A stretch of 42,007 nucleotides of DNA, taken from assembly GCA_025358435.1 (NCBI GenBank), contig JANYJQ010000117.1:1-42007 (forward strand), read 5' to 3'. Of the stretch, positions 28,809 through 42,007 are shown in pieces. The position numbers and the translations under genes are program-made. Positions within the stretch are counted from its first letter, which is position 1. Every line of letters begins with the position of its first letter. The notes beneath the pieces were generated by a model. That model was not told the DNA's origin, searched no databases, and saw nothing but the letters and a program-made list of their open reading frames with translations. This stretch comes from Holophagaceae bacterium. GTDB taxonomy: Bacteria; Acidobacteriota; Holophagae; Holophagales; Holophagaceae.

Positions 28809-30326
28809 TTATTTATTCGAAAACTCCATCACAACGGCGGGAGCCTCCTTTTCGAACCAGCGGATATCGTCTGTCCATTTCAGCAATTGAGGCCCAAAGG
28901 CCGTCCCGACCAGAACGAGCGCGCAGGCCGTGCTGATGAGGAACTTGGAGTACGAATCCATCGGCTCCACTTCGCCTTCGGCAGGCTCCTTGAAATACAT
29001 CTGTTTGACCACTTCCAGATAGTAGAAGGCGCTCACGGCGGACGTCAGCAAGGCGATGACCACCAAGGTGGTGAAGCCCTGCTCCACCGCCAGGAGGAAG
29101 ATGTAGAACTTCCCGAAAAAGCCGATGAAGGGCGGAATCCCCGCAAGGCTCAATAGAAATACGAGCATGGAAAATGCCAGCACAGGATGACGCTTGCCCA
29201 TGCCGGCGAAGTCTTCAATGCGTTCGCCTTCATTCTTGCCCTGAAGGTAGATGAGCACCGCGAAGGCCCCGGTGTTCATGAAGAGATACAGCAGCATGTA
29301 GAGCCAAACCGCCTGGGCTCCAGCCTGGGCATCCCGGCTCAAAACGCCCAGCAGCATGTACCCCACGTGGGCGATGGAGGAATAGGCCAGCAGCCGCTTC
29401 AAACTTTGCTGCTTGATGGCCGCAACGTTGCCAAGGATCATGCTGGCGCCGCAGATGAGCATCAGGGGCGCCTCCCACTCATACGAAATGCTATGGAAGC
29501 CGGTACCGAAAACCCTCAGGAACACGGCCAGCGAAGCAGCTTTGGGCGCGGTCGCCAACCAGGCTGTGATGGGTGTCGGGGCCCCGTCGTAAACGTCGGG
29601 AGACCACATATGGAAAGGCACCGCCGCAACCTTGAAGCAAAGGCCCACGAGCACCATCAGCACACCGGAATAGACCAGCAGGCTCTTATCCTGGGAAACC
29701 ACCGCCAATTTCTGGTTCAACTCCGTCAGGTTTGTCGTGATGCCCCCCGTCGCGGCGAACAGCAGCGAGATTCCGAACAGCATGATGCCGCTGGAGAACG
29801 CCCCCAGCAGGAAGTACTTCATGCCGGCCTCGATGCCGCGCTCCTGCTGGCGCAGATAGGCCACGAGAATGTAGATGCAGAGCGCCATCAGCTCGATGGA
29901 GAAGTAGATCGTCACCAGATCCACGGCGCCGCACATGAAGAGCATGCCGCTGGTGGCGAACAGGATCAGCGCATAGTATTCCGCCGTATGTTCCACCAGG
30001 GCGCCTAGCACTTTCTGGCTGAGCATCACGGCGAAGATCGAGGCCAGGATGCAAAGCACCTGGAAACCCTTGGCCAGGCCGTCCACCTTGTACATGGCGG
30101 AGAAACCGAGCCCATTGGGCGTGTAGATGGAAAGCACCAGCGAAACCACCAGGATCGCCATGGTGGGGATGGCCCACTTGTGTTTCTCAGCCTTGGTCCA
30201 TGGCAACAACCAGGTATCCAGGGGCCATAGCATCAGCAACCCCGAGACCATCAGCAGAATGTGAGGCCAGATGTAGTGGATGTCGTGGCTGAGGTTTTCC
30301 CAAAGCCCCGGTGCGAAGGAAGGCAT
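28809..30326 (-). CDS. nuoN: NADH-quinone oxidoreductase subunit N
   Basis: A 505-residue antiporter-like membrane subunit of complex I with about 14 helices. Conserved charged sites are seen: SIELMALCIY (the Glu) and CFKVAAVPFHMWSPDVYDGAP (the Lys). It ends the nuo operon. The ATG at 30326 overlaps the nuoM stop by one base, and GGGGGAGG lies within the end of nuoM. A terminator follows. Confidence 0.96.
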   Translation of the reverse strand: MPSFAPGLWENLSHDIHYIWPHILLMVSGLLMLWPLDTWLLPWTKAEKHKWAIPTMAILVVSLVLSIYTPNGLGFSAMYKVDGLAKGFQVLCILASIFAVMLSQKVLGALVEHTAEYYALILFATSGMLFMCGAVDLVTIYFSIELMALCIYILVAYLRQQERGIEAGMKYFLLGAFSSGIMLFGISLLFAATGGITTNLTELNQKLAVVSQDKSLLVYSGVLMVLVGLCFKVAAVPFHMWSPDVYDGAPTPITAWLATAPKAASLAVFLRVFGTGFHSISYEWEAPLMLICGASMILGNVAAIKQQSLKRLLAYSSIAHVGYMLLGVLSRDAQAGAQAVWLYMLLYLFMNTGAFAVLIYLQGKNEGERIEDFAGMGKRHPVLAFSMLVFLLSLAGIPPFIGFFGKFYIFLLAVEQGFTTLVVIALLTSAVSAFYYLEVVKQMYFKEPAEGEVEPMDSYSKFLISTACALVLVGTAFGPQLLKWTDDIRWFEKEAPAVVMEFSNK

Positions 30327-32011
30327 CAGTGACCTCCCCCTGGAGCTGCATGCGCTTCAGATACCTCTGCCTTCGGCTCAGAAGCGTGTTCTGCGGGCGC
30401 GGTTCCATGTTCCTTGGTTTCAGGCGCTTCCTGGGCTTCCATCCCATGCATACCGACCTTGGCGGCTTCAGCCTGCTTGGCGGCAAGGGATTCAGCCTTG
30501 TAGAAGTCCGGCTGCACTTGCATCACTAGCTTGGCAACGGGCTTGTCCATGATGTCCATGAAGGGCTTGGGGTAGAGCCCGATCCACACGGCCACGATGA
30601 TCAGGGGCGTGAAGTAGGCGATCTCGCGGAAGTTCAGGTCCGCCATCTTGGTATTCACTTCTGAGATGGGTCCGAACATCACGCGCTGGAACATCCAAAG
30701 CATGTAGGCGGCGCCCAGGATGATTCCGGAAGTGGCTGCCACAGCCACCCAGGGCCAGGTCTGGAAAGTGCCCATGAGAATGGTCGCTTCACCAATGAAG
30801 CCATTCAGCAAAGGCAGTCCGATGCTGCTCATCGTCATGAGCATGAAGATGGTCGCGTAGATGGGCATGGTCTTCGAAAGTCCGCCGTAGTCGGCGATCA
30901 TGCGGGTGTGGCGGCGTTCATAGACGATGCCCACCGCAAGGAATAGTCCCGGTGTCGAAACGCCATGGTTGAGCATCTGGAACATCGCGCCCTTCATGCC
31001 CCATGGGTTCATGGCGAAAATGCCCAACATGCAAAGCCCGAGGTGGCTCACGGAGGAATAGGCCACGAGCTTCTTCATATCCTTCTGGATCATGGCCACC
31101 AGGGCGCCGTAGACGACGCCGATGAGGGCCAGCGCCAGGAACCAGGGCATCAGTTCCTTGGTGCCTTCGGGGACGATGGGCAGCAGAAAACGCACGAAGC
31201 CATAGGTGCCCATCTTCAGCAGGATGCCTGCCAGGATCACGGAGCCGGCGGTTGGCGCCTGCACGTGGGCGTCCGGCAGCCAGGTGTGGAAGGGGAACAT
31301 CGGCACTTTGATGGCGAAGGCCAGGAAGAAGGCCAGGGTCAGCAGGATCTGGAAGGTTTTGGTCTGGCTCGCGATGAGCTGGACGGTCTGGGCGCTCTGG
31401 AACGAGGCAATGGAGAAATCGTATTGGCCGGTCGCCTTGTGCTGCAGGAAATAGATGGCGAAGATCGCCACGAGCATCAGCACCGAGCCGGAAAGCGTAT
31501 ACAGGAAGAGCTTGATGGCGGCATAGAGCTTTTGCGGGCCGCCCCAGATGGCGATGAGGAAGTACATGGGCACCAGCATCACTTCCCAGAAGATGTAGAA
31601 CAGGAACATGTCCTGGGTGATGAAGACGCCAAGCATGGAAGTCTGCAGCACCAGAAGCCAGATGTAGTACTCCTTCCAACGCTCCTCGATGTTGCCCCAG
31701 GAGCAGAGCGCCGCGATGGGGCCGGTGAACGTGGTCAAAAGCCAGAGCAGCAGGGAAATGCCATCCATCCCGACGCTGAATTTGACACCGAGGCTCGGCA
31801 TCCAGTCGCAGACATACGCGAACTGCACGGCGTCGCTGCCCCGGTTGTATTGGAACCAGAGCGGCACGCTCAGCAGAAAGCTGGCGACCATGATGGCGAC
31901 CGTCGCCTTCTGGAAGACCTCGCGCTTCTCGTTGGGAACGAAGAGCAGGCCGAGCCCTCCCAGAATGGGCAGGAAGGTGGCCAAAAGCATCAATTGGGCT
32001 GTACCGCTCAT
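30326..32011 (-). CDS. nuoM: NADH-quinone oxidoreductase subunit M
   Basis: A 561-residue antiporter-like membrane subunit of complex I, with about 14 helices. The proton-path residues E143 (FWEVMLVPMY), K235 (AIKVPMFPFHTWLPDAH) and K266 match the family positions. The C-terminal extension (about 500-561) is Ala/Glu/His-rich and low in complexity, unlike the usual end of NuoM. The ATG at 32011 has TTGGAG upstream; a TTG four codons earlier is less likely. Confidence 0.96.
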   Translation of the reverse strand: MSGTAQLMLLATFLPILGGLGLLFVPNEKREVFQKATVAIMVASFLLSVPLWFQYNRGSDAVQFAYVCDWMPSLGVKFSVGMDGISLLLWLLTTFTGPIAALCSWGNIEERWKEYYIWLLVLQTSMLGVFITQDMFLFYIFWEVMLVPMYFLIAIWGGPQKLYAAIKLFLYTLSGSVLMLVAIFAIYFLQHKATGQYDFSIASFQSAQTVQLIASQTKTFQILLTLAFFLAFAIKVPMFPFHTWLPDAHVQAPTAGSVILAGILLKMGTYGFVRFLLPIVPEGTKELMPWFLALALIGVVYGALVAMIQKDMKKLVAYSSVSHLGLCMLGIFAMNPWGMKGAMFQMLNHGVSTPGLFLAVGIVYERRHTRMIADYGGLSKTMPIYATIFMLMTMSSIGLPLLNGFIGEATILMGTFQTWPWVAVAATSGIILGAAYMLWMFQRVMFGPISEVNTKMADLNFREIAYFTPLIIVAVWIGLYPKPFMDIMDKPVAKLVMQVQPDFYKAESLAAKQAEAAKVGMHGMEAQEAPETKEHGTAPAEHASEPKAEVSEAHAAPGGGH

Positions 32012-32041
32012 GAAAAACTCCAAACGAATATCACTTCAAGA

Positions 32042-34333
32042 TCAAGCGAGAAACTTCCAAAAGGCGAAAGCGAGGAAACCGAGAATCATCACAAAGGCGT
32101 AGTTCTGGACCTTGCCGCTCTGCAGGGCCCTGAACCCCAGAGAACCCTGCTGCAAGCCCCAAGCCACGGCATTCACCAGGCCGTCCACCACCTTGGCGTC
32201 GAACCAGTCGCTGGCTTTGGCCATGGTCACCGTGAAACGCGCGGCGCCATTCACCGTGCCATCGATCACCCAGTTGTCGAGGCTCCATAGCTGCGCCGAG
32301 AATTGCTTGGCAGGGCCGATGATCATCGCTTCGTAGAACTCGTCAACGTAGTACTTGGCATTGACCCACTCGTAAACCTGGGGGAAGCGTGCCACGAAAG
32401 CCTTGGCTTTGGACCAGCTTGGATCAGAGATGTACATCCACCAGGCGAGGCCCATGGCGCTGAGCGCCCAGACGATGGCGAAGCCCATTAGAATGTACTC
32501 GATGGATTCCGCGGCGTGGTGTCCTGCATGGACCGCACTCACCTGGTACAGCAGGGGCTCCACCCACTTGGAAAAATGTTCAAGCCCGCCCAGGCTTGGA
32601 GGCAGGTTCAGGAAGCCCAGCACCACTGCCAGAACCGCGAAAATGAAAACCGGCACCCACATGTTCCAGGGGACTTCCGCAGGGCCATGGTTGTGCCCGG
32701 CATGGCCGTGATCCGTAAGATCGTCCGCCGCGTGGGCATGGAGCCCGGGATTGGTGTGGGCATCCGCGTGGCCATCGTCAAGAGCGTGATCATCGCTGGC
32801 GTGGTGGACCTCGCTGGGCACCGTCAGGCCATAGGGATCGCTCCCGGCGCCGCGGTACTCGCCAAAGAAGGTCATGGCCATGAGCCGCACCATGTAGAAG
32901 GCCGTGCAGAAGGCCGCCAACATTCCCATGCCCCAGCACACGTAGTAGAACGTACCTTGGCCGTTCCAGCCATGCTCGAAGACCTTCCACAAGATCTCAT
33001 CCTTGGAAAAGAATCCAGAGAAGGGCGGCACACCCGCGATGGCCAGGGTGGCCAAGCCCATGCTGGCGAAGGTCCAGGGCATGACCTTGCGCAATCCACC
33101 CATGTTCCGCATGTCCTGTTCGTGGTGGCAGGCCACAATGACCGAGCCCGAACCGAGGAACAGGCAAGCCTTGAAGGCAGCGTGGGTGAAGACATGGAAC
33201 ATGCCCGCCGAGAAGGCGCCAGCGCCTAGTCCCATGAACATGAAACCCAGCTGGGACACGGTGGAATAGGCCAGCACCTTCTTGATGTCGTATTGTGCGA
33301 GGCCCATGGTCGCGGCAAACAACGCGGTCAGGGAGCCCACCAGCAGCACCAGGGAAAGGGCAAAGGGCGCCTGGACGTAAATGAAATTGAGCCGGGTGAT
33401 CATGTAGAGGCCCGAGGTCACCATGGTGGCCGCATGGATCAGCGCGCTCACCGGAGTCGGACCCGCCATGGCATCCGGCAGCCAGACATAGAGCGGAATC
33501 TGCGCGGACTTGCCCATGGCGCCCACAAACAAACAGCTGGCGCTCAGGTTAAACCAGAAGGTGGGCGTGGCCGTGTGGCCAAAGAGCGTGATGGCAGGAG
33601 CCGCGCTGAGGTTCCGCACCATGCCCATCATCGTGTCGTAATCGACATTGCCGAACAGCATGATCAGCAGGAAGAAGCCGATCATGAACCCGAAATCACC
33701 CACCCGGTTGAAGACGAAAGCCTTCTTGCCCGCCACCGCAGCGTATTCCCGGTCGAAATAGAACCCGATGAGCAGATAGGAGCAGACGCCGACGCCTTCC
33801 CAGCCCAGGAACATCATCAGGATGTTGGCGCCCAGCACCAGGTTCAACATGGAGAACACGAACAGGTTCATGTAGGCCATGAAGCGGTAGTAGCGGCCGT
33901 CGTTGCGTTCTTCGGCCATGTATCCCGTGCTGAACAGGTGGATCAAGAAACCCGCGCCGGTCACCAGGATCGCCATGGCTGCGCTGAGCGCGTCGAATTT
34001 GTAGGCCCACTTGATGGTCGCGGTGCTGAGGCCGCCCAAAACCCTTGCACCGCCCAGGTCGAACCAGGTCCAAAGGTTCTGGTGGATGGACCGTGAGCCC
34101 TCAGGCATCGCAAGCAATTGGAAGAAGAAATAGACCGTGAGGAGGAAAGAGATCCCGACCGAGCCAAGGGCGATTGCATCCACGACCTTGGTGCTTTTGA
34201 GTCGCCTACCGGTAAGCCCATTGATCAGGAAACCGAAGAACGGCAGGAATGGGATGAGCCAGAGGATGCCGCTGCCCGTGCTGGCGGCGCCTGCGGCTTC
34301 CACCATGTGACTCGCTGCTTGTTCGATAATCAT
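32042..34333 (-). CDS. nuoL: NADH-quinone oxidoreductase subunit L
   Basis: A 763-residue complex I subunit, the distal proton pump with a long lateral helix at the C terminus. Key sites: E179 (LGWEGVGVCSYLLIGF), K275 (GAMGKSAQIPLYVWLPDAM) and K388. A His/Asp-rich linker at about 509-550 holds eleven histidines in roughly 40 residues, between the antiporter core and the lateral helix. Length exceeds the typical 610-690 residues partly because of this. GGGGAA precedes the ATG. Confidence 0.96.
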   Translation of the reverse strand: MIIEQAASHMVEAAGAASTGSGILWLIPFLPFFGFLINGLTGRRLKSTKVVDAIALGSVGISFLLTVYFFFQLLAMPEGSRSIHQNLWTWFDLGGARVLGGLSTATIKWAYKFDALSAAMAILVTGAGFLIHLFSTGYMAEERNDGRYYRFMAYMNLFVFSMLNLVLGANILMMFLGWEGVGVCSYLLIGFYFDREYAAVAGKKAFVFNRVGDFGFMIGFFLLIMLFGNVDYDTMMGMVRNLSAAPAITLFGHTATPTFWFNLSASCLFVGAMGKSAQIPLYVWLPDAMAGPTPVSALIHAATMVTSGLYMITRLNFIYVQAPFALSLVLLVGSLTALFAATMGLAQYDIKKVLAYSTVSQLGFMFMGLGAGAFSAGMFHVFTHAAFKACLFLGSGSVIVACHHEQDMRNMGGLRKVMPWTFASMGLATLAIAGVPPFSGFFSKDEILWKVFEHGWNGQGTFYYVCWGMGMLAAFCTAFYMVRLMAMTFFGEYRGAGSDPYGLTVPSEVHHASDDHALDDGHADAHTNPGLHAHAADDLTDHGHAGHNHGPAEVPWNMWVPVFIFAVLAVVLGFLNLPPSLGGLEHFSKWVEPLLYQVSAVHAGHHAAESIEYILMGFAIVWALSAMGLAWWMYISDPSWSKAKAFVARFPQVYEWVNAKYYVDEFYEAMIIGPAKQFSAQLWSLDNWVIDGTVNGAARFTVTMAKASDWFDAKVVDGLVNAVAWGLQQGSLGFRALQSGKVQNYAFVMILGFLAFAFWKFLA

Positions 34334-34382
34334 GCGTTCCCCAAATCTTTTCGAATCAACCGGATCATCAGGATCATTTGTT

Positions 34383-34685
34383 TCAACCCTTCAACAGATT
34401 GATTTCATCAACCTGGATGTTGCCCTTCTTGCGATACAGGGCCACCACCAAAGCGAGTCCCACCGCCACTTCTGCCGCTGCAAAGCCCATCACCAGCAGC
34501 GCGAACGCCTGGCCATGGACCGTGCCTGACAGCCGGGCGAAGGCGATGAAATTCAGATTGGCCGCGTTGAGCATGAGCTCCACGCACATCAGGATCACCA
34601 GCGCGTTGCGGCGGATGAGCACACCGGCCACGCCCACCGACCAGAGCAGGAATGAGATCAGGAGCACCGCGTTCATCGAGACCAT
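34383..34685 (-). CDS. nuoK: NADH-quinone oxidoreductase subunit K
   Basis: A 100-residue subunit with three membrane helices. The two conserved membrane glutamates are E36 (CVELMLNAANL) and E72 (AAAEVAVGLALVV), at the same positions as in E. coli NuoK. AGGAG lies seven bases before the ATG at 34685. It follows nuoJ closely. Confidence 0.96.
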   Translation of the reverse strand: MVSMNAVLLISFLLWSVGVAGVLIRRNALVILMCVELMLNAANLNFIAFARLSGTVHGQAFALLVMGFAAAEVAVGLALVVALYRKKGNIQVDEINLLKG

Positions 34686-34694
34686 ATGTGGCTC

Positions 34695-35243
34695 CTATAC
34701 CCTTTCCGATTTCGCCAGCACGATGGCCCCGACGAGGGCCACCAGCAGGATCACCGAGAGGATTTCAAAAGGCAGGATGAAGTTCGCGAAAAGGCCGCGG
34801 CTCACCGCTTGCGCGTTGCCCAGGTTTTCCGTGGCGCCCACCAGGCCTGGTTGGAGTGTCAGGGCCTCGTTCGTGCTGGCGCCGAAGAGCGCTGTGCGGA
34901 ATACACCTGCGAAAGCGAGCAGGCCGAGTCCGACGAGCGGAATCGCGAATTTCGTCTGGGTCTGGAATATGCCCTTCTCCTGATACTTGGTGAGTTCCAC
35001 GAGCATCACGACAAAGAGGAAAAGCACCACAATTCCGCCTGCGTAGACCAGCAATTGCGCCACACCCAGGAACTCCGCCTGCAGTGAAAGGAAACAACCC
35101 GCCACGCAGATCATCGAGAATAGGAACCCGATGACGCTATGAACGGCGCTCTTGGAGAAGATCAACACACCAGCGCCACCCACGGCCAACAGGCCGAAGA
35201 TCACGAACATGTATTGGCCGAGCTTGATGAGGAGTTGTTCCAT
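34695..35243 (-). CDS. nuoJ: NADH-quinone oxidoreductase subunit J
   Basis: A 182-residue membrane subunit of complex I with five helices. The third contains the typical AQLLVYAGGIVVLFLFVVML segment, with the pi-bulge region. AAGG lies before the ATG at 35243. It is between nuoI and nuoK. Confidence 0.95.
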   Translation of the reverse strand: MEQLLIKLGQYMFVIFGLLAVGGAGVLIFSKSAVHSVIGFLFSMICVAGCFLSLQAEFLGVAQLLVYAGGIVVLFLFVVMLVELTKYQEKGIFQTQTKFAIPLVGLGLLAFAGVFRTALFGASTNEALTLQPGLVGATENLGNAQAVSRGLFANFILPFEILSVILLVALVGAIVLAKSERV

Positions 35244-35280
35244 GGCGGACCTTGAAAGAAGAACAGCTGGTGCGGAGGAG

Positions 35281-35799
35281 TTAGTCCTCGCTGGAGACTG
35301 AGTAGTGGCTCACGGGCGTGGGGTCGAACATGTTCTGGAACCCGCCTTCCATCGCGTGGGAGAAATCCTCGCGGTTGTAAGTGGCCAGCTCGAACTGGTG
35401 GTTCAGGATGATGGAATCGAAGCCGCAGCTCTCAACGCAGAACTCGCAGAAGATGCAGCGTTCCATCTCGAAGTCGTACCGGATGGGAAAGGGGGTTTTG
35501 CGGCCCTCCTTTTTGCCTTTTTCGATGGTGATGACCTGGGTGGGGCAGATCTTTTCGCAAGCCATGCAGCATACGCATTTGACCTCGCCCTGCTCATCCT
35601 TGATCATCTGCAGCCGGCCGCGGAACCTAGGCATCAGCGTCGTGGGGACTTCGGGGTATTCCACCACGACGTGGGTGCGCTTGAGGCCGCGGTTGGCCTG
35701 GCGAAGGACCTTGCCGAAATATTTCCCGGTGAGTTTCATGCCCCCGTAGATGTCGAAGGGGATCAGGGTGCGGAGCAACGAATATCTCGGTGATGCCAT
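35281..35799 (-). CDS. nuoI: NADH-quinone oxidoreductase subunit I
   Basis: A 172-residue subunit with two [4Fe-4S] clusters (N6a and N6b) that pass electrons to NuoB. Cysteines: C75, C78, C81 and C85P in the first motif, C115, C118, C121 and C125 in the second. The usual proline after the last cysteine is Gly here (ESCGFDS). GAGG lies before the ATG at 35799; a longer frame antisense to nothing but overlapping nuoH is rejected. It is the likely entry point from any ferredoxin donor in this operon. Confidence 0.95.
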   Translation of the reverse strand: MASPRYSLLRTLIPFDIYGGMKLTGKYFGKVLRQANRGLKRTHVVVEYPEVPTTLMPRFRGRLQMIKDEQGEVKCVCCMACEKICPTQVITIEKGKKEGRKTPFPIRYDFEMERCIFCEFCVESCGFDSIILNHQFELATYNREDFSHAMEGGFQNMFDPTPVSHYSVSSED

Positions 35800-35807
35800 T
35801 GTCGACC

Positions 35808-37031
35808 TCAGGCGGCGTAGCGGAGCAAGGCCGCGATGACGAACATGACCAGCGTGTAGGGGATCAGGAACTTCCAGCCCACGTCCATGAGCTGGTCGTA
35901 GCGGTAGCGTGGAACCGTCGCGCGCACCCACAGGAAGACAAAGAGCAAGAAGAATATCTTGAGCAGGAACCAGAGAATGCTCGGGGTGCAAGTCCAGGCC
36001 AGGAATGCGCTAGGGCTGTTCTGGAAAAAGTGGTTCCAGGTCGGCTGAAGCCCGAACGGCAAGAGATAGTGGCCCCCCAGGAAGAAGGCGCTCGCCAGGG
36101 CGGAAACCGTGATCATCGAGGCATATTCAGACAGGAAGAAAAAGCTGAACTTCATGCCCGAGTATTCCGTGTGGAAGCCCGCCACCAGCTCGTTTTCGGC
36201 CTCGGCCAGATCGAAGGGCGTGCGGTTGGTTTCGGCGAACCCGCATGTGGTGTAGACAAAGAAGCCCACAAACATCAGCAACGTCCTGCCGATGCCCACC
36301 AGCCCATTGACTGGAATGTCCGTGGCCATGCGCGTGCTCATCTCGTTGAAGTTCAGGGAGCCCGTGAGCACCACCGGGACCAGAAGGCTGAGGGTCAGGG
36401 GCACTTCATAGCTGACGATCTGGGCCGCGCTGCGGAGGCCGCCGAGCAGCGGGTACTTGGAGTTGGAGGCCCAGGCGCCCAGAACGATGCCGTAAACGCC
36501 CACGGAGGCCACGCCCAGGATGAAGAGCAGGCCAACATTCAAGTCCGTCAGAAACCCGTAGAACGGAAGACCGCCCAGATAAGGGAATTTCGCGGGGAAG
36601 TAGAAAAGTGCGCCGGGCGCGAAACCGATGGCTGCAAACACGGTGAAGGCCGCCACCATTGCCAGCGCGGGGGACAGCACAAAAACCGCTTTGTCAGCTT
36701 CAATTGGAACGATGTCCTCCTTGGTGAGGAGCTTGAGGGCATCTGCGATGAACATGGGCAGGCCGCGGAAGATTGAAATCACGGGCCATCTTCCCAGCCA
36801 CCACATGAACCCATTCAAACCACCCGTAAAGGTCCGGGACTGATGGGTCCGGCCTCGCTGCGCGCCCCAAAGTCCGCCGGCCACCCGGGTGGCGCCCAAG
36901 CGCACCTGCACGTAGCCGATCACCTTGCGTTCTGCAAAGGTGAGCAAGGGGACCAGCGTCATCACGAACCCCATGACCACAACGATCTGCAGCAGGGAAA
37001 TGACCAGATATTGAGTCAGCGTCGGCGTCAT
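35808..37031 (-). CDS. nuoH: NADH-quinone oxidoreductase subunit H with loop insertion
   Basis: A 407-residue quinone-site membrane subunit of complex I. Typical segments: FAERKVIGYVQVRLGATRV (32-50), FIADALKLLTKEDIVP (94-109), AETNRTPFDLAEAENELVAGFHTEYSG and the final WVRATVPRYRYDQLM. Between RV-GGLWG and LPMFIADALK lies an extra segment of about 35 residues (about 56-91) rich in Trp/Arg/Gly, missing from the usual RVGP-GLLQPIADGIK junction. It adds much of the excess over the normal length of about 330 residues. GAGGATT lies before the ATG. Confidence 0.95.
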   Translation of the reverse strand: MTPTLTQYLVISLLQIVVVMGFVMTLVPLLTFAERKVIGYVQVRLGATRVAGGLWGAQRGRTHQSRTFTGGLNGFMWWLGRWPVISIFRGLPMFIADALKLLTKEDIVPIEADKAVFVLSPALAMVAAFTVFAAIGFAPGALFYFPAKFPYLGGLPFYGFLTDLNVGLLFILGVASVGVYGIVLGAWASNSKYPLLGGLRSAAQIVSYEVPLTLSLLVPVVLTGSLNFNEMSTRMATDIPVNGLVGIGRTLLMFVGFFVYTTCGFAETNRTPFDLAEAENELVAGFHTEYSGMKFSFFFLSEYASMITVSALASAFFLGGHYLLPFGLQPTWNHFFQNSPSAFLAWTCTPSILWFLLKIFFLLFVFLWVRATVPRYRYDQLMDVGWKFLIPYTLVMFVIAALLRYAA

Positions 37032-37053
37032 TGTTGAATCCTCATCGATCTAC

Positions 37054-37117
37054 GCTCGGGGATCATCGATCCACCTCGGCCGCCCCTAAATGGCTCGGGG
37101 ATCATCGATCCACCTCG
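37054..37117. repeat. 25-bp perfect direct repeat at the nuoD-nuoH junction
   Basis: Two identical 25-base copies (37054-37078 and 37093-37117) start 39 bases apart. The second includes the final Glu-Val-Asp-Arg codons and the TGA of nuoD; the first repeats them after the stop. A degenerate third copy (TCATCGATCTAC) precedes nuoH near 37042-37053. It marks the place where nuoE, nuoF and nuoG normally lie. Confidence 0.75.
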
Positions 37118-38202
37118 CCGAGCACGACGTCCAGGGTTCCGATGGCGGCGATCACGTCCGCCAACAGGCGGCCTACAACCATCTTGGACAAGGCCTGGAG
37201 GTTGATAAACGAGGGTGCCCTGATATGCATGCGATAGGGATTCTGTCCGCCCTTCTCACCGACAAAGTAATAGCCCAATTCACCTTTGGGGGCCTCGATG
37301 GCGTGGTAGACCTCGTTCACTTCGGACTTCAGAACTTTGGGGAGCTTGGCCATCACCGGGCCTTCGGGAAGTCCGTCCAGGCACTGATTGATGATCCGAT
37401 GGGCCTGGCGCATTTCTTCCAGACGCACCAGGTACCGGGCGTAGGTATCGGCTGCCGTCTGGGTCGCCACTTCGAAATCCATTTCCGCATAGGAGGCGTA
37501 GGGGAACGCCTTGCGGATGTCGTAGTTCGAGCCGGCCGCGCGAAGCACCGGCCCCGTTACTCCGAGAGCAATCGCATCTTCGGCATTGAGAAGGGCCACG
37601 CCGATGGTGCGCTTCTTCCAAATGCGGTTTTCCGTGAGCAGCGTCTCGTATTCATCGATGCAATCCAGAAACCTGGCCTGAAAGGCGCGGACCAGCTTTT
37701 CGAGGCCCGGCGGAAGGTCTTCCCGCAGGCCGCCGATGCGGAAGGCGGTGGTGGTGAGCCTCGCACCGCAGAAGGCCTCGAATATGGAGAGGATTTCTTC
37801 ACGTTCACGAAAGGCGTAGAGGAAGACCGTCATCGCTCCGATGTCGAGCGCGTGGGTGCCCAGCCACAGCAGGTGCGAGGTGATGCGGTTCAGCTCCGTG
37901 AGCATGGTGCGGATGTAATGGGCGCGCCGTGGAACCGTGATGCCAAATAGTTTTTCAACTCCCTCGGCCCAACCGAGGTTATTGCTGACCGAAGCCACAT
38001 AGTCCGTGCGGTCCGTCCATACCTGGCCCTGGAAGAAGGTCTTGTTCTCGCAGATCTTTTCCACACCCCGATGCAGGTAGCCGATCATCGGCGTGCAGCG
38101 GGTGATGGTCTCGCCGTCCAGATGCAGCTTCACCCTTAGCACCCCATGAGTCGATGGGTGCTGCGGGCCCAGGTTGATTTCCATTTCCTCGGTTTTGAAC
38201 AC
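37102..38202 (-). CDS. nuoD: NADH-quinone oxidoreductase subunit D
   Basis: A 366-residue subunit of the complex I hydrophilic arm that helps form the quinone site. The quinone contacts are conserved: H19 in QHPSTHG and Y68 in TDRTDYVA, at the 49-residue separation known from Thermus Nqo4. The C terminus ends in the usual LGEVDR. The start is GTG at 38202, with AGGAG seven bases ahead. nuoC is upstream with a 25-base gap; NuoC and NuoD are separate, not fused. Confidence 0.96.
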
Positions 38203-38227
38203 CAGGAACTCCTAATACGCGTTTGCT

Positions 38228-39883
38228 TCAGTCTGCCTTCGGGACCTTGAGATTGATGCCCATGTTCCCTGCCTGTTCCATGGCCATCCGCATGAGCACT
38301 CCGGAACGGTCCTCGCGGAAATCGATATCCCGCTGGCCCCAGCCGAGGGTGGGATATTCCTTGCGGAGCGGATAGCCTTCCCAGTCCTCCGGGCAGAGAA
38401 TCCGAGTCATGTCCGGATGGCCGCTGAATCGGATGCCGAACATGTCGTAGATCTCCCGCTCCATCCAATTGGCGGACGGGTAGATCTCCACAGCGCTCTC
38501 CAGGTCCTGCCCTTCCTTCACCAGCACACGAATCCTAAGTCGCTTCCGGCGGCTGATGGACGTGAGTTGGTAGACGACGGAAAACGCAAACCCATTCGCC
38601 GCCGGATAGTGCGTTGCGGTCTGATCCGCCAGCATTTCGTACCGTAGCGAGGCGTCGCCTTTGCAGAACATGAGAGTCTCGATCAGGCCGTCTGGATGCA
38701 CTTGCAAGATCAGCTCGCCGCTCTGCTCGAAGGCCTGGGAAACCTTTCCGTCCAGCAGGTCCATGAGGTGCAGCAGGTCGGGATCCTTGGCTTCAGAGGG
38801 CGCCGGGAATTCCATGTCCGTATCGTTCTTTTTCGGAAGCGCGCGTACGGGCGGTTTCGGGGCATCCTTCCCCTCAGCCAGGGCCTTGGCTTTCGCGGTT
38901 TCAAAATCCGCCTGCTGCTTGATCCACTTCGCCTCGTCCGCGGCCATGGCAGCCTTCTGTTCTTCCTGGTAGGTGTGCAGGCTTGGCAAAGGCACGGTCT
39001 TCGGCATCACCACCTGGCGATTCGGTGCGGATTTGTAGTCGATGACATAGGGACCCGCTGCGACTTCGACCGCCGCATGCGCTTCGGCCTCCACCACCGG
39101 AGGCGGCACAAGCGTCGCTTCTCCGATCACTTCGTACTTGATGACTTCAACGGGGCAGTTCGCGGCGGCGGTGATGATGCTGCTGATAAGCCGCTCCCCA
39201 TCCGACGGATTGAGGCCGCTTTTCTCTGCCCGGTTCTCGGATTCCTTGCCATCCGCCCGGACGCCAGCCTTGATCGTGCAGGTCGTCTCGGTGACGCGGA
39301 ATACTTCGGGGCTGTCTGCTTCGCAAGCGTTGCAGACAATGCAGCCTTCTTCGATCCACACCTTGGTGACGCGGGGTTTGGCTGCCTCGGTTATGGATGG
39401 TGCAGCTGCGGGGGATGGGGCAGCGGCAGCGCGGATGTTGGCCGTTGTCCCAAGGGCCGCATCAACCGCATTTTCTATGTCGGTATCTACCACATGTGGC
39501 ATAGGCGCAGGTGTCGCAGGCAGAGGTGACACAGGGGGCGCGGCTTCTGCGGCAGAGGCGGGCGCGATAGGGGTAGCTGGGGTTGTTGGAACTGGAACCA
39601 CAGCAGCAGTCGGCTTAGCTGCAGCGCTGGCCACCTGGTCGAACTTGATCACTTCCACGGGACAGCTGGCGGCAGCCGCAATGATGGCTTCTTCAAGGTT
39701 CGCCTGCAGGTCCGGCTTCAGTTCCGCCTTCTCCTCGCGGTTCTCGCTCTCCTTGCCATCCTGGCGGGCCTCGCCCTTGATGTGGCAGCTGTCCTCGGTG
39801 ACATGGAAGACATCAGGGCATTCGGCCTCGCAGGCGTTGCAAACGATGCAGCCTTCTTCGATCCAGACCTTCGTGATTGCCAT
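38228..39883 (-). CDS. nuoC: NuoC with two N-terminal ferredoxin-like domains
   Basis: A 551-residue protein, about three times the usual NuoC. Residues about 365-551 are NuoC (30-kDa subunit), including EIYPSANWMEREIYDMFGIR and the RILCPEDWEGYPLRKEYP region. Residues 1-80 and 171-250 are two similar ferredoxin-like domains. Domain 1 has C12, C15, C18, C22, C33 and C74-P. Domain 2 has C181, C184, C187, then S191 instead of Cys, C202 and C243-P. The pattern fits single [4Fe-4S] ferredoxins like that of Thermotoga, in which three N-terminal cysteines and the C-P cysteine bind the cluster and two others form a disulfide. Ala/Pro linkers (about 85-165 and 255-300) and a helical stretch (about 305-345) separate the domains. 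Fused ferredoxins could bring electrons to the neighbouring NuoI/NuoB clusters. Confidence 0.88.
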   Translation of the reverse strand: MAITKVWIEEGCIVCNACEAECPDVFHVTEDSCHIKGEARQDGKESENREEKAELKPDLQANLEEAIIAAAASCPVEVIKFDQVASAAAKPTAAVVPVPTTPATPIAPASAAEAAPPVSPLPATPAPMPHVVDTDIENAVDAALGTTANIRAAAAPSPAAAPSITEAAKPRVTKVWIEEGCIVCNACEADSPEVFRVTETTCTIKAGVRADGKESENRAEKSGLNPSDGERLISSIITAAANCPVEVIKYEVIGEATLVPPPVVEAEAHAAVEVAAGPYVIDYKSAPNRQVVMPKTVPLPSLHTYQEEQKAAMAADEAKWIKQQADFETAKAKALAEGKDAPKPPVRALPKKNDTDMEFPAPSEAKDPDLLHLMDLLDGKVSQAFEQSGELILQVHPDGLIETLMFCKGDASLRYEMLADQTATHYPAANGFAFSVVYQLTSISRRKRLRIRVLVKEGQDLESAVEIYPSANWMEREIYDMFGIRFSGHPDMTRILCPEDWEGYPLRKEYPTLGWGQRDIDFREDRSGVLMRMAMEQAGNMGINLKVPKAD

Positions 39884-39912
39884 ATCTCTTTTTCCTTCCG
39901 GAGGCCTGCGGC

Positions 39913-40431
39913 CTAACTCACCGATTCAAAGATCTCGGCGTATTTATCGGCCATGGAGCTGGTCATGATTTTGTCTTGGAGTTTCAGGAATCCATAGATC
40001 AGACCCTCGGGACGGGGCGGGCATCCTGGGATGAAGACGTCCACGGGCACGATCTTGTCCACGCCCTGGATGGTGTGATAGCTGTCGAAGGGTCCGCCGG
40101 CTGTGGCGCACGAGCCCATGGCGATGACCCACTTGGGCTCTGGCATTTGGTCATAGAGCTTCTTGATCACCGGAGCCATTTTGTAGGTCACAGTGCCCGC
40201 CACGATCATCAAATCACTCTGGCGGGGGGTGGCCCGGAAGATGCCGGCGCCGAAACGGTCGAAGTCGAACTTGGAAGCCCCGGCGGCCATCATCTCGATG
40301 GCGCAGCAGGCAAGGCCGAAGGACATGGGCCACACGCTGGTGGCGCGCGCCCAGTTGATGACGCGTTCGACTTTGGTGGTGATGAGGATGTGCTCGAGAA
40401 CGTCTGGTCCATTCATGCCATTCATTCCCAT
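39913..40431 (-). CDS. nuoB: NADH-quinone oxidoreductase subunit B
   Basis: A 172-residue subunit carrying cluster N2, the last Fe-S cluster before quinone. Its ligands C42, C43 ([10 protein letters not shown]), C108 (GSCAT) and C137 (PGCPPRPEG) have the same spacing as in E. coli. The start at 40431 is supported by AAAGGAG; an in-frame extension reading through nuoA is rejected. The start overlaps the nuoA end by 10 bases. Confidence 0.96.
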
Positions 40432-40775
40432 GTGAGAGCTCCTTTGGCCCAGATGTACCCATAACCGAACAACAGCAGGAACAGGAAGAACAGCATCTCG
40501 ACCAGGCCGAACAGTGCCAATTCCTTGATCTGGATGGCCCAGGGCATCAGGAAAACTGTTTCCACATCGAAGATCAGGAACATCACCGCAACCATGTAAT
40601 AACGCACTGAGAATTTCTCGCGGGCCCCAGTGGTGGGCGTGATGCCGCATTCATAAACCATGTACTTGTTCAAATTGGGAGATTTGGGCCGGAGCAGGCG
40701 GGCGAGACCCCAGACTATGGGCGGTGTCGCCATAGAAATGAGCAGAAGTAACAGAATCGGGGCATAACCTCGCAT
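40422..40775 (-). CDS. nuoA: NADH-quinone oxidoreductase subunit A
   Basis: A 117-residue membrane subunit with three helices. It has the conserved loop [20 protein letters not shown] and [16 protein letters not shown] is before the ATG at 40775. It is the first gene of the nuo operon and overlaps nuoB. The structured intergenic region at 40848-40953 lies in its presumed leader. Confidence 0.96.
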
Positions 40776-41079: not shown

Positions 41080-42007
41080 ATGGCCGCACTCGATCCCTCA
41101 CTCCCCCATGAAGAGAAAACCCTGGTCTTGGAGATGCCCGACAAGGGCGACAAGACCCTGGCCGGCGATCTGACTCAGACAGACATGAGGCCCGAGCGCC
41201 TGCTGTATCCATCCCTGGATCTCACCAAGGAACCCGTGGATTTCGCACTTTTCCAGGCTATATCGCTGGACACCATGCTCAAGCACCATTTCGTGCCGGT
41301 GCAGGAGCGGGAGGGCGTCCTTTGGCTGGCCATGGCGGATCCCTTGGACGTGGTCACCCAGGACATGCTGCGGATGCAGCTCAAGCGCCCTTTGAAATTC
41401 GCCGGCGCTCCCCAGTCCCAGATCCAGGAAGTGCTCAAGAAATCAGAAAGCGGACAGAAGGCACTTGATGAAGTGGGCGAGGCCTTGAAGGTCCAGGTGC
41501 TCAGCGCAGAGGATGTGGATGATGAGGCTCTGGATCTGGAGAGGCTCACCGACAAGGACGAAGCCCCCATCGTGAAGCTGGTGGATACCACCATCTTCAA
41601 CGCCTTGCAGAGGCGCACTTCAGACATCCACCTGGAGACCACCGCCGCGGGTTTCCTGATCAAATACCGCATTGATGGCAGCCTCTATCCCGCGGCCGAT
41701 CCCATTGATAAGCGTTTTGCGTCCGCCATCATCAGCCGCGTCAAGGTCATGAGCGAGCTGGACATCGCCGAAAAGCGCAAGCCCCAGGACGGCCGCTTCA
41801 AACTTAAAGTGCGCGGCCGCGCCATCGATTTCCGCGTGAGCATCATGCCCACCATCCACGGCGAAGACGCGGTCATCCGCATCCTCGACAAGGAGAACCT
41901 CAGCGAGGAATTCAAGACCCTCAACCTCGACATCCTGGGGTTCTCGCAGCTCGAGCTGGTGCGGCTGCGGCGGTTCTCCAAGGAGCCCTACGGCATGTTC
42001 CTGGTGA
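41080..42007 (+). CDS. PilB/GspE-family ATPase (partial, 5' part)
   Basis: The first 309 residues of a type IV pilus or type II secretion assembly ATPase; the gene runs off the window just before the Walker A loop (RRFSKEPYGMFLV...). The N-terminal part (about 1-130) resembles the N1 domain. The catalytic-domain start is seen in IVKLVDTTIFNALQRRTSDI, HLETTAAGFLIKYRIDG and ISRVKVMSELDIAEKRKPQD, followed by GRFKLKVRGRAIDFRVSIMP. An in-frame TGA at 41044 limits the start to the ATG at 41080, which has no obvious ribosome binding site. The prepilin-like and PilR-like genes at 12-14 kb are possible partners. Confidence 0.85.
   Translation, partial: MAALDPSLPHEEKTLVLEMPDKGDKTLAGDLTQTDMRPERLLYPSLDLTKEPVDFALFQAISLDTMLKHHFVPVQEREGVLWLAMADPLDVVTQDMLRMQLKRPLKFAGAPQSQIQEVLKKSESGQKALDEVGEALKVQVLSAEDVDDEALDLERLTDKDEAPIVKLVDTTIFNALQRRTSDIHLETTAAGFLIKYRIDGSLYPAADPIDKRFASAIISRVKVMSELDIAEKRKPQDGRFKLKVRGRAIDFRVSIMPTIHGEDAVIRILDKENLSEEFKTLNLDILGFSQLELVRLRRFSKEPYGMFLV

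Follow-up and report, generated by a model that had tools for sequence, protein, structure and literature searches.

The window analysed here, a 42,007-nucleotide stretch of DNA that its relatives assign to Holophagaceae (Acidobacteriota), comes from a MAG that is 76% complete. It carries an operon for 11 complex I subunits in the order nuoA-B-C-D-H-I-J-K-L-M-N (28809-40775), and nuoE, nuoF and nuoG are absent from the operon in the window. The third gene, between nuoB and nuoD, encodes a NuoC preceded by two ferredoxin domains (Table 1). It starts 29 bases past nuoB and ends 25 bases ahead of nuoD. As the first-pass annotation had it, the reading frame is uninterrupted and has a good start, with 551 codons without an internal stop and AAGGAAA upstream of the ATG at 39883. 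The NuoI of this operon matches TIGR01971 with 97.5 bits, under the cut-off of 113, and it also matched complex I NuoI structures. A pilB-like ATPase gene (41080-42006) is divergent from nuoA, and it is kept as a neighbour in genera g2 and g9.

Table 1. Genes of the 11-subunit operon and parts of the fused nuoC gene, with positions in the window
Feature	Position	Strand	Remarks
nuoA	40422..40775	(-)	PF00507
nuoB	39913..40431	(-)	PF01058; probable start, ORF runs further upstream
nuoC fusion gene, 551 aa	38228..39883	(-)	Fd1 - linker - Fd2 - linker - helix - NuoC
Ferredoxin domain 1 (Fd1), residues 1-82	39638..39883	(-)	Single [4Fe-4S] type; Pfam, AF2, Foldseek
Linker 1, Ala/Pro-rich, residues 83-169	39377..39637	(-)	Predicted disordered; evolves fast
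Ferredoxin domain 2 (Fd2), residues 170-252	39128..39376	(-)	63% identity to domain 1
Linker 2, residues 253-300	38984..39127	(-)	Predicted disordered
NuoC N-terminal extension, family-specific, residues 301-385	38729..38983	(-)	Contains helix 302-336; shared with the unfused NuoC of Geothrix
NuoC domain and C-terminal tail, residues 386-551	38228..38728	(-)	PF00329, TIGR01961; Foldseek complex I NuoC/NDUFS3
nuoD	37102..38202	(-)	From sequence; 44% identity to second NuoD set in G058
nuoH	35808..37031	(-)	
nuoI	35281..35799	(-)	Probable start; basic hairpin GKKEGRK separates two 4Fe-4S motifs
nuoJ	34695..35243	(-)	Gene order conserved in relatives
nuoK	34383..34685	(-)	
nuoL	32042..34333	(-)	
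nuoM	30326..32023	(-)	
nuoN	28809..30326	(-)	Last gene of operon

Domains of the fused protein

The NuoC part is well supported by profile searches. Pfam places Complex1_30kDa (PF00329) at residues 394-512 (3.5e-40; 137.9 bits versus a cut-off of 22.5), and the NCBIfam model TIGR01961 matches with 133.8 bits versus 122.45. The NuoC domain that had been proposed at about residues 365-551 is therefore present, but its Pfam bounds differ from those proposed and follow a helix of 35 residues in the AlphaFold model. This helix belongs to the extension that is common to unfused Holophagaceae NuoC.

The two ferredoxin-like domains with matching cysteine patterns, also picked out in the first-pass annotation, were recovered. 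Fer4_15 and Fer4_13 match residues 9-80 (Pfam, 7e-9), and domain 2 alone matches Fer4_13 (5e-5) with 24.3 bits, slightly below the gathering score of 24.5. The ligands of domain 1 are C12-x2-C15-x2-C18 ... C74-P, and the pattern in domain 2 is identical. Each domain has four cluster cysteines in sequence and a ferredoxin fold in the AF2 model. In that model, built from 28 aligned sequences, pLDDT is about 85-96 in the two ferredoxin domains and over most of the core of NuoC, and residues 88-166 (pLDDT about 30) and 257-298 are disordered. Foldseek matched the NuoC core to NuoC/NDUFS3 structures of complex I, and domain 1, modelled alone, to the single-cluster ferredoxins 1iqz, 2z8q and 1vjw, with modest E-values (0.002-0.04) and probabilities of at least 0.96 in the first twelve matches. 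The predicted isoelectric points are 4.4 for domain 1 and 4.8 for domain 2.

Conservation of the ferredoxins and their free counterpart

The cluster cysteine pattern is kept in all 20 fused ferredoxin domains that were extracted. An accessory fifth cysteine (C22) is variable, and was lost in domain 2 and in the free ferredoxin of g1. Pairwise dN/dS values, where computable, were 0.03-0.12 for domain 1, 0.04-0.14 for domain 2, 0.03-0.07 for NuoC and 0.14-0.24 for linker 1, ratios that are approximate given the high synonymous distances. Linker 1 is not conserved, with a dN of 0.28-0.57 and many gap columns. Judged from these coding sequences, both fused ferredoxin domains are under purifying selection.

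A free ferredoxin of about 84 residues occurs in nearly every Holophagaceae genome, including those with the fusion; that of the window MAG (C116:1126-1377) adjoins a thiL-like gene. The fused domains are about 55-75% identical to this free family ferredoxin or to each other. The family ferredoxin was not found outside Holophagaceae in 396 sampled Acidobacteriota genomes, where all 36 hits were within the family. Outside the family, the closest ferredoxins detected are free Planctomycetota proteins, Kuenenia among them (L079, L066, L070), which may reflect transfer between phyla. The loop from the third cysteine ligand to the fourth is shorter in the free ferredoxin of G065 (L186 2037-2312) than in the rest of the family.

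Genus g2, with genomes of 0.9-1.2 Mb, still carries the fusion. Alongside the fused NuoC, it retains the free ferredoxin and the two sets of complex I genes, as in G001 (about 1.2 Mb; L149, L156, L147).

Distribution and history of the fusion

A search of NuoC homologues for N-terminal ferredoxins, proposed earlier as a check, found in-frame fusions in 11 other Holophagaceae genomes, bringing the count to 12 of 77 in four genera (g1, g2, g6 and g9). A 13th case is G056, in which the two halves of the fusion lie at contig ends. NuoC carries two ferredoxins in g1, g2 and G054 of g6, and one in G055 of g6 and in G065, G066 and G070 of g9. It has none in Geothrix (g3, 47 genomes in the family search), g4, g5, g7, g8, g10 and g11, nor in G069 of g9; in G067 and G068 of g9 the locus is truncated by a contig start and was left unscored. 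Given that the unfused NuoC of the family starts at the extension that follows linker 2 in the window protein, the fusion consists of modules added before an existing family-type NuoC.

The fused nuoC of G058 (L004, JANXPB010000161.1) has an in-frame TAG at codon 530 of the frame from 4905. It directly follows YPSANWM in the NuoC domain, the rest of which is intact in the same frame, and stems either from an error in sequencing or from a recent nonsense mutation.

Outside Holophagaceae, there was no full-length match to the fusion among the best 80 of 189 hits in 84,980 species genomes, in a search that was seeded with exact peptides and that divergent fusions could escape. The fusion was absent from the two other families of the class that were searched, and none of the plasmid records covers 80% of the fusion query.

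In a tree of concatenated complex I sequences, g1, g2 and g6 group together, apart from g9, which forms a second clade with the unfused G069 as its basal member. Two earlier trees were discarded, one small and poorly resolved, the other mixing NuoL/M/N paralogues in truncated loci. An AU test did not reject a single clade of all fused ferredoxins (p 0.57, on a short ferredoxin alignment). Either the fusion was gained twice, or it was gained once and later lost in places. Within the clade of g1, g2 and g6, domain 2 looks, if weakly, like an old copy of domain 1.

A second, NADH-type complex I

Genes of the NuoF family are present in all 48 high-quality Holophagaceae genomes. NuoE and NuoF are encoded with or near nuoA2B2C2D2 in G001, G009, G054 and G058; in the four examined loci that have both EF and ABCD (L135, L136, L138, L149), EF is always close to A2-D2 and never with the 11-subunit operon. 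The NuoF of this second set is a true NuoF, over the cut-off of TIGR01959. The family's NuoG is shortened to about 490 residues, comprising TIGR01973 positions 1-293 and a short remnant of the molybdopterin domain, and its gene stands alone beside purH, away from other nuo genes (L148 2309-3760; G000:C165:10896-11801).

A second HIJKLMN set occurs in all five genomes inspected, including the window MAG (C31:5397-12807), and exactly two NuoH loci were found in 23 of the 24 genomes tested, the 24th adding one weak match. Of the second complex, NuoG and H2-N2 were seen in the window MAG; no A2-F2 cluster was detected in this 76%-complete genome, and all four congeners have NuoF-family genes. The NuoI and NuoC of the 11-subunit operon differ from those of the NADH-type set.

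Given this second complex I with NuoEFG, the idea of an organism that gave up its NADH module is rejected for the family, and the fused complex is the isoform that lacks this module. The suggestion of the first-pass annotation that ferredoxins act in place of the NADH module thus applies to the fused complex, with its operon lacking NuoEFG, but not to the family as a whole.

Proposed function of the tethered ferredoxins

Given that the ferredoxin domains are intact, conserved and under selection, and that their operon lacks NuoEFG, the best reading is that the tethered ferredoxins feed the complex. A natural fusion of ferredoxin to NuoC suggests that ferredoxin feeds a complex I that has no NADH module. 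The fused-NuoC complex is probably an 11-subunit, NADH-module-free ferredoxin:quinone oxidoreductase that carries its electron donor in cis. We also lean, with somewhat less confidence, towards a self-wired proton pump whose two tethered [4Fe-4S] domains stand in for the NADH module, an arrangement that two separate lineages of the family either gained or retained.

In this scenario, each fused ferredoxin would bind one low-potential [4Fe-4S] cluster, and the 2-oxoacid:ferredoxin oxidoreductases PFOR and KOR could reduce the tethered domains, directly or via the free ferredoxin. POR_N genes of PFOR/KOR are present in 23 of the 24 genomes tested, and two of the three reduced g2 genomes have one KOR-type gene. 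A tethered domain, with its acidic surface, would dock on a basic patch at the NuoI/NuoD apex, and electrons would pass from the docked ferredoxin to N6a, N6b, N2 and quinone, with proton pumping as the result. Tethering would raise the local concentration of the donor, and two domains might act as a relay or store two electrons. The family's NADH-linked complex I would be an enzyme of its own.

The predicted net charge of the NuoI hairpin, taken from sequence, is +1 to +3 in the fused-type isoform versus -2 to 0 in the NADH-type. Since the basic hairpin occurs in unfused genera too, it may support the use of ferredoxin in general and not the tether, and free ferredoxin probably feeds the same complex in Geothrix. 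The absence of the fusion from most of the family (Geothrix) and from G069 implies that tethering is not essential; fusion probably makes the pairing of ferredoxin and complex permanent.

Other explanations have to be weighed against a tethered donor. Electrons could flow in reverse, from quinol to the tethered ferredoxin, such that the proton gradient would supply reduced ferredoxin to biosynthesis or to reverse 2-oxoacid synthesis. KOR and PFOR enzymes are reversible and are encoded in these genomes, and a tether makes as much sense for an acceptor as for a donor, but this direction requires a high proton-motive force and we consider it rather unlikely. The fused ferredoxins might instead be docking or assembly modules, an electron buffer or a sink for oxidative stress, with a free partner feeding N6a. 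We regard such a role as unlikely: it would fit the range of zero to two ferredoxin domains among relatives and the retention of free ferredoxin in fused genomes, but not the conservation of the ligand cysteines and fold under purifying selection.

In principle, the 11-subunit complex could serve as a docking site for the second complex's NADH module, and the family does encode homologues of NuoE, NuoF and NuoG. If the complex borrowed them, it would be an NADH dehydrogenase and the ferredoxins an accessory entry or exit point. That EF adjoins A2-D2 of the other set in four of four loci and never the fused-type operon, and that the operon's NuoI and NuoC are unlike those of the NADH-type set, makes borrowing very improbable. 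That a frameshift, a chimeric assembly or a mis-called start joined separate genes is scarcely credible: the window does come from an incomplete (76%) MAG, but an assembly artefact is ruled out by the same in-frame join in 11 further genomes from separate assemblies and four genera, three of them single-contig genomes, probably of isolates.

Comparison with known systems

The first-pass annotation knew of no described precedent, and we likewise found no report of a NuoC-ferredoxin fusion in the open-access literature. A 2024 study, in the passages cited here, treats the direct donor of the 11-subunit complex I as an open question and relates that a common donor protein in all bacteria with the complex was sought unsuccessfully (PMC11238625, citing Moparthi and Hagerhall 2011). 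With a house ferredoxin built into one of its core subunits, the complex offers a definite donor candidate and makes the question testable, and one family offers natural versions of the same complex with zero, one and two ferredoxins for comparison.

According to the same passages, Desulfitobacterium hafniense DCB-2 has the same 11 genes in the same order without EFG, and ferredoxin derived from PFOR is among the proposed donors; unlike in Holophagaceae, the complex is described there without a ferredoxin fused to NuoC (PMC11238625). Published fusions of NuoC, namely NuoCD and NuoBCD (PMC12361115), join core subunits, whereas the NuoC encoded in the window is extended by two redox carriers that belong to a family of soluble donors. 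The ferredoxins of Thermotoga maritima (1vjw), Bacillus thermoproteolyticus (1iqz) and Pyrococcus furiosus (2z8q) have the same C-x2-C-x2-C ... C-P ligands and fold, but they are soluble carriers, whereas those of the fused protein are domains of a respiratory subunit.

The likeness to NDH-1 of Cyanobacteria and plastids lies in a complex I core without EFG, which in NDH-1 takes electrons from ferredoxin at N6a of NdhI. In the cyanobacterial complex, the docking site of the acidic ferredoxin comprises the NdhI hairpin and NdhH, and its electrons enter at N6a (PMC7021789, PMC6992706), a precedent for the mechanism proposed here. NDH-1 has the additional subunits NdhS, O and V, for which the Holophagaceae operon has no genes. 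Its ferredoxin is a free [2Fe-2S] protein of the plant type, whereas in the fused complex the ferredoxins are of the bacterial [4Fe-4S] type and are covalently attached to NuoC, the counterpart of NdhJ.
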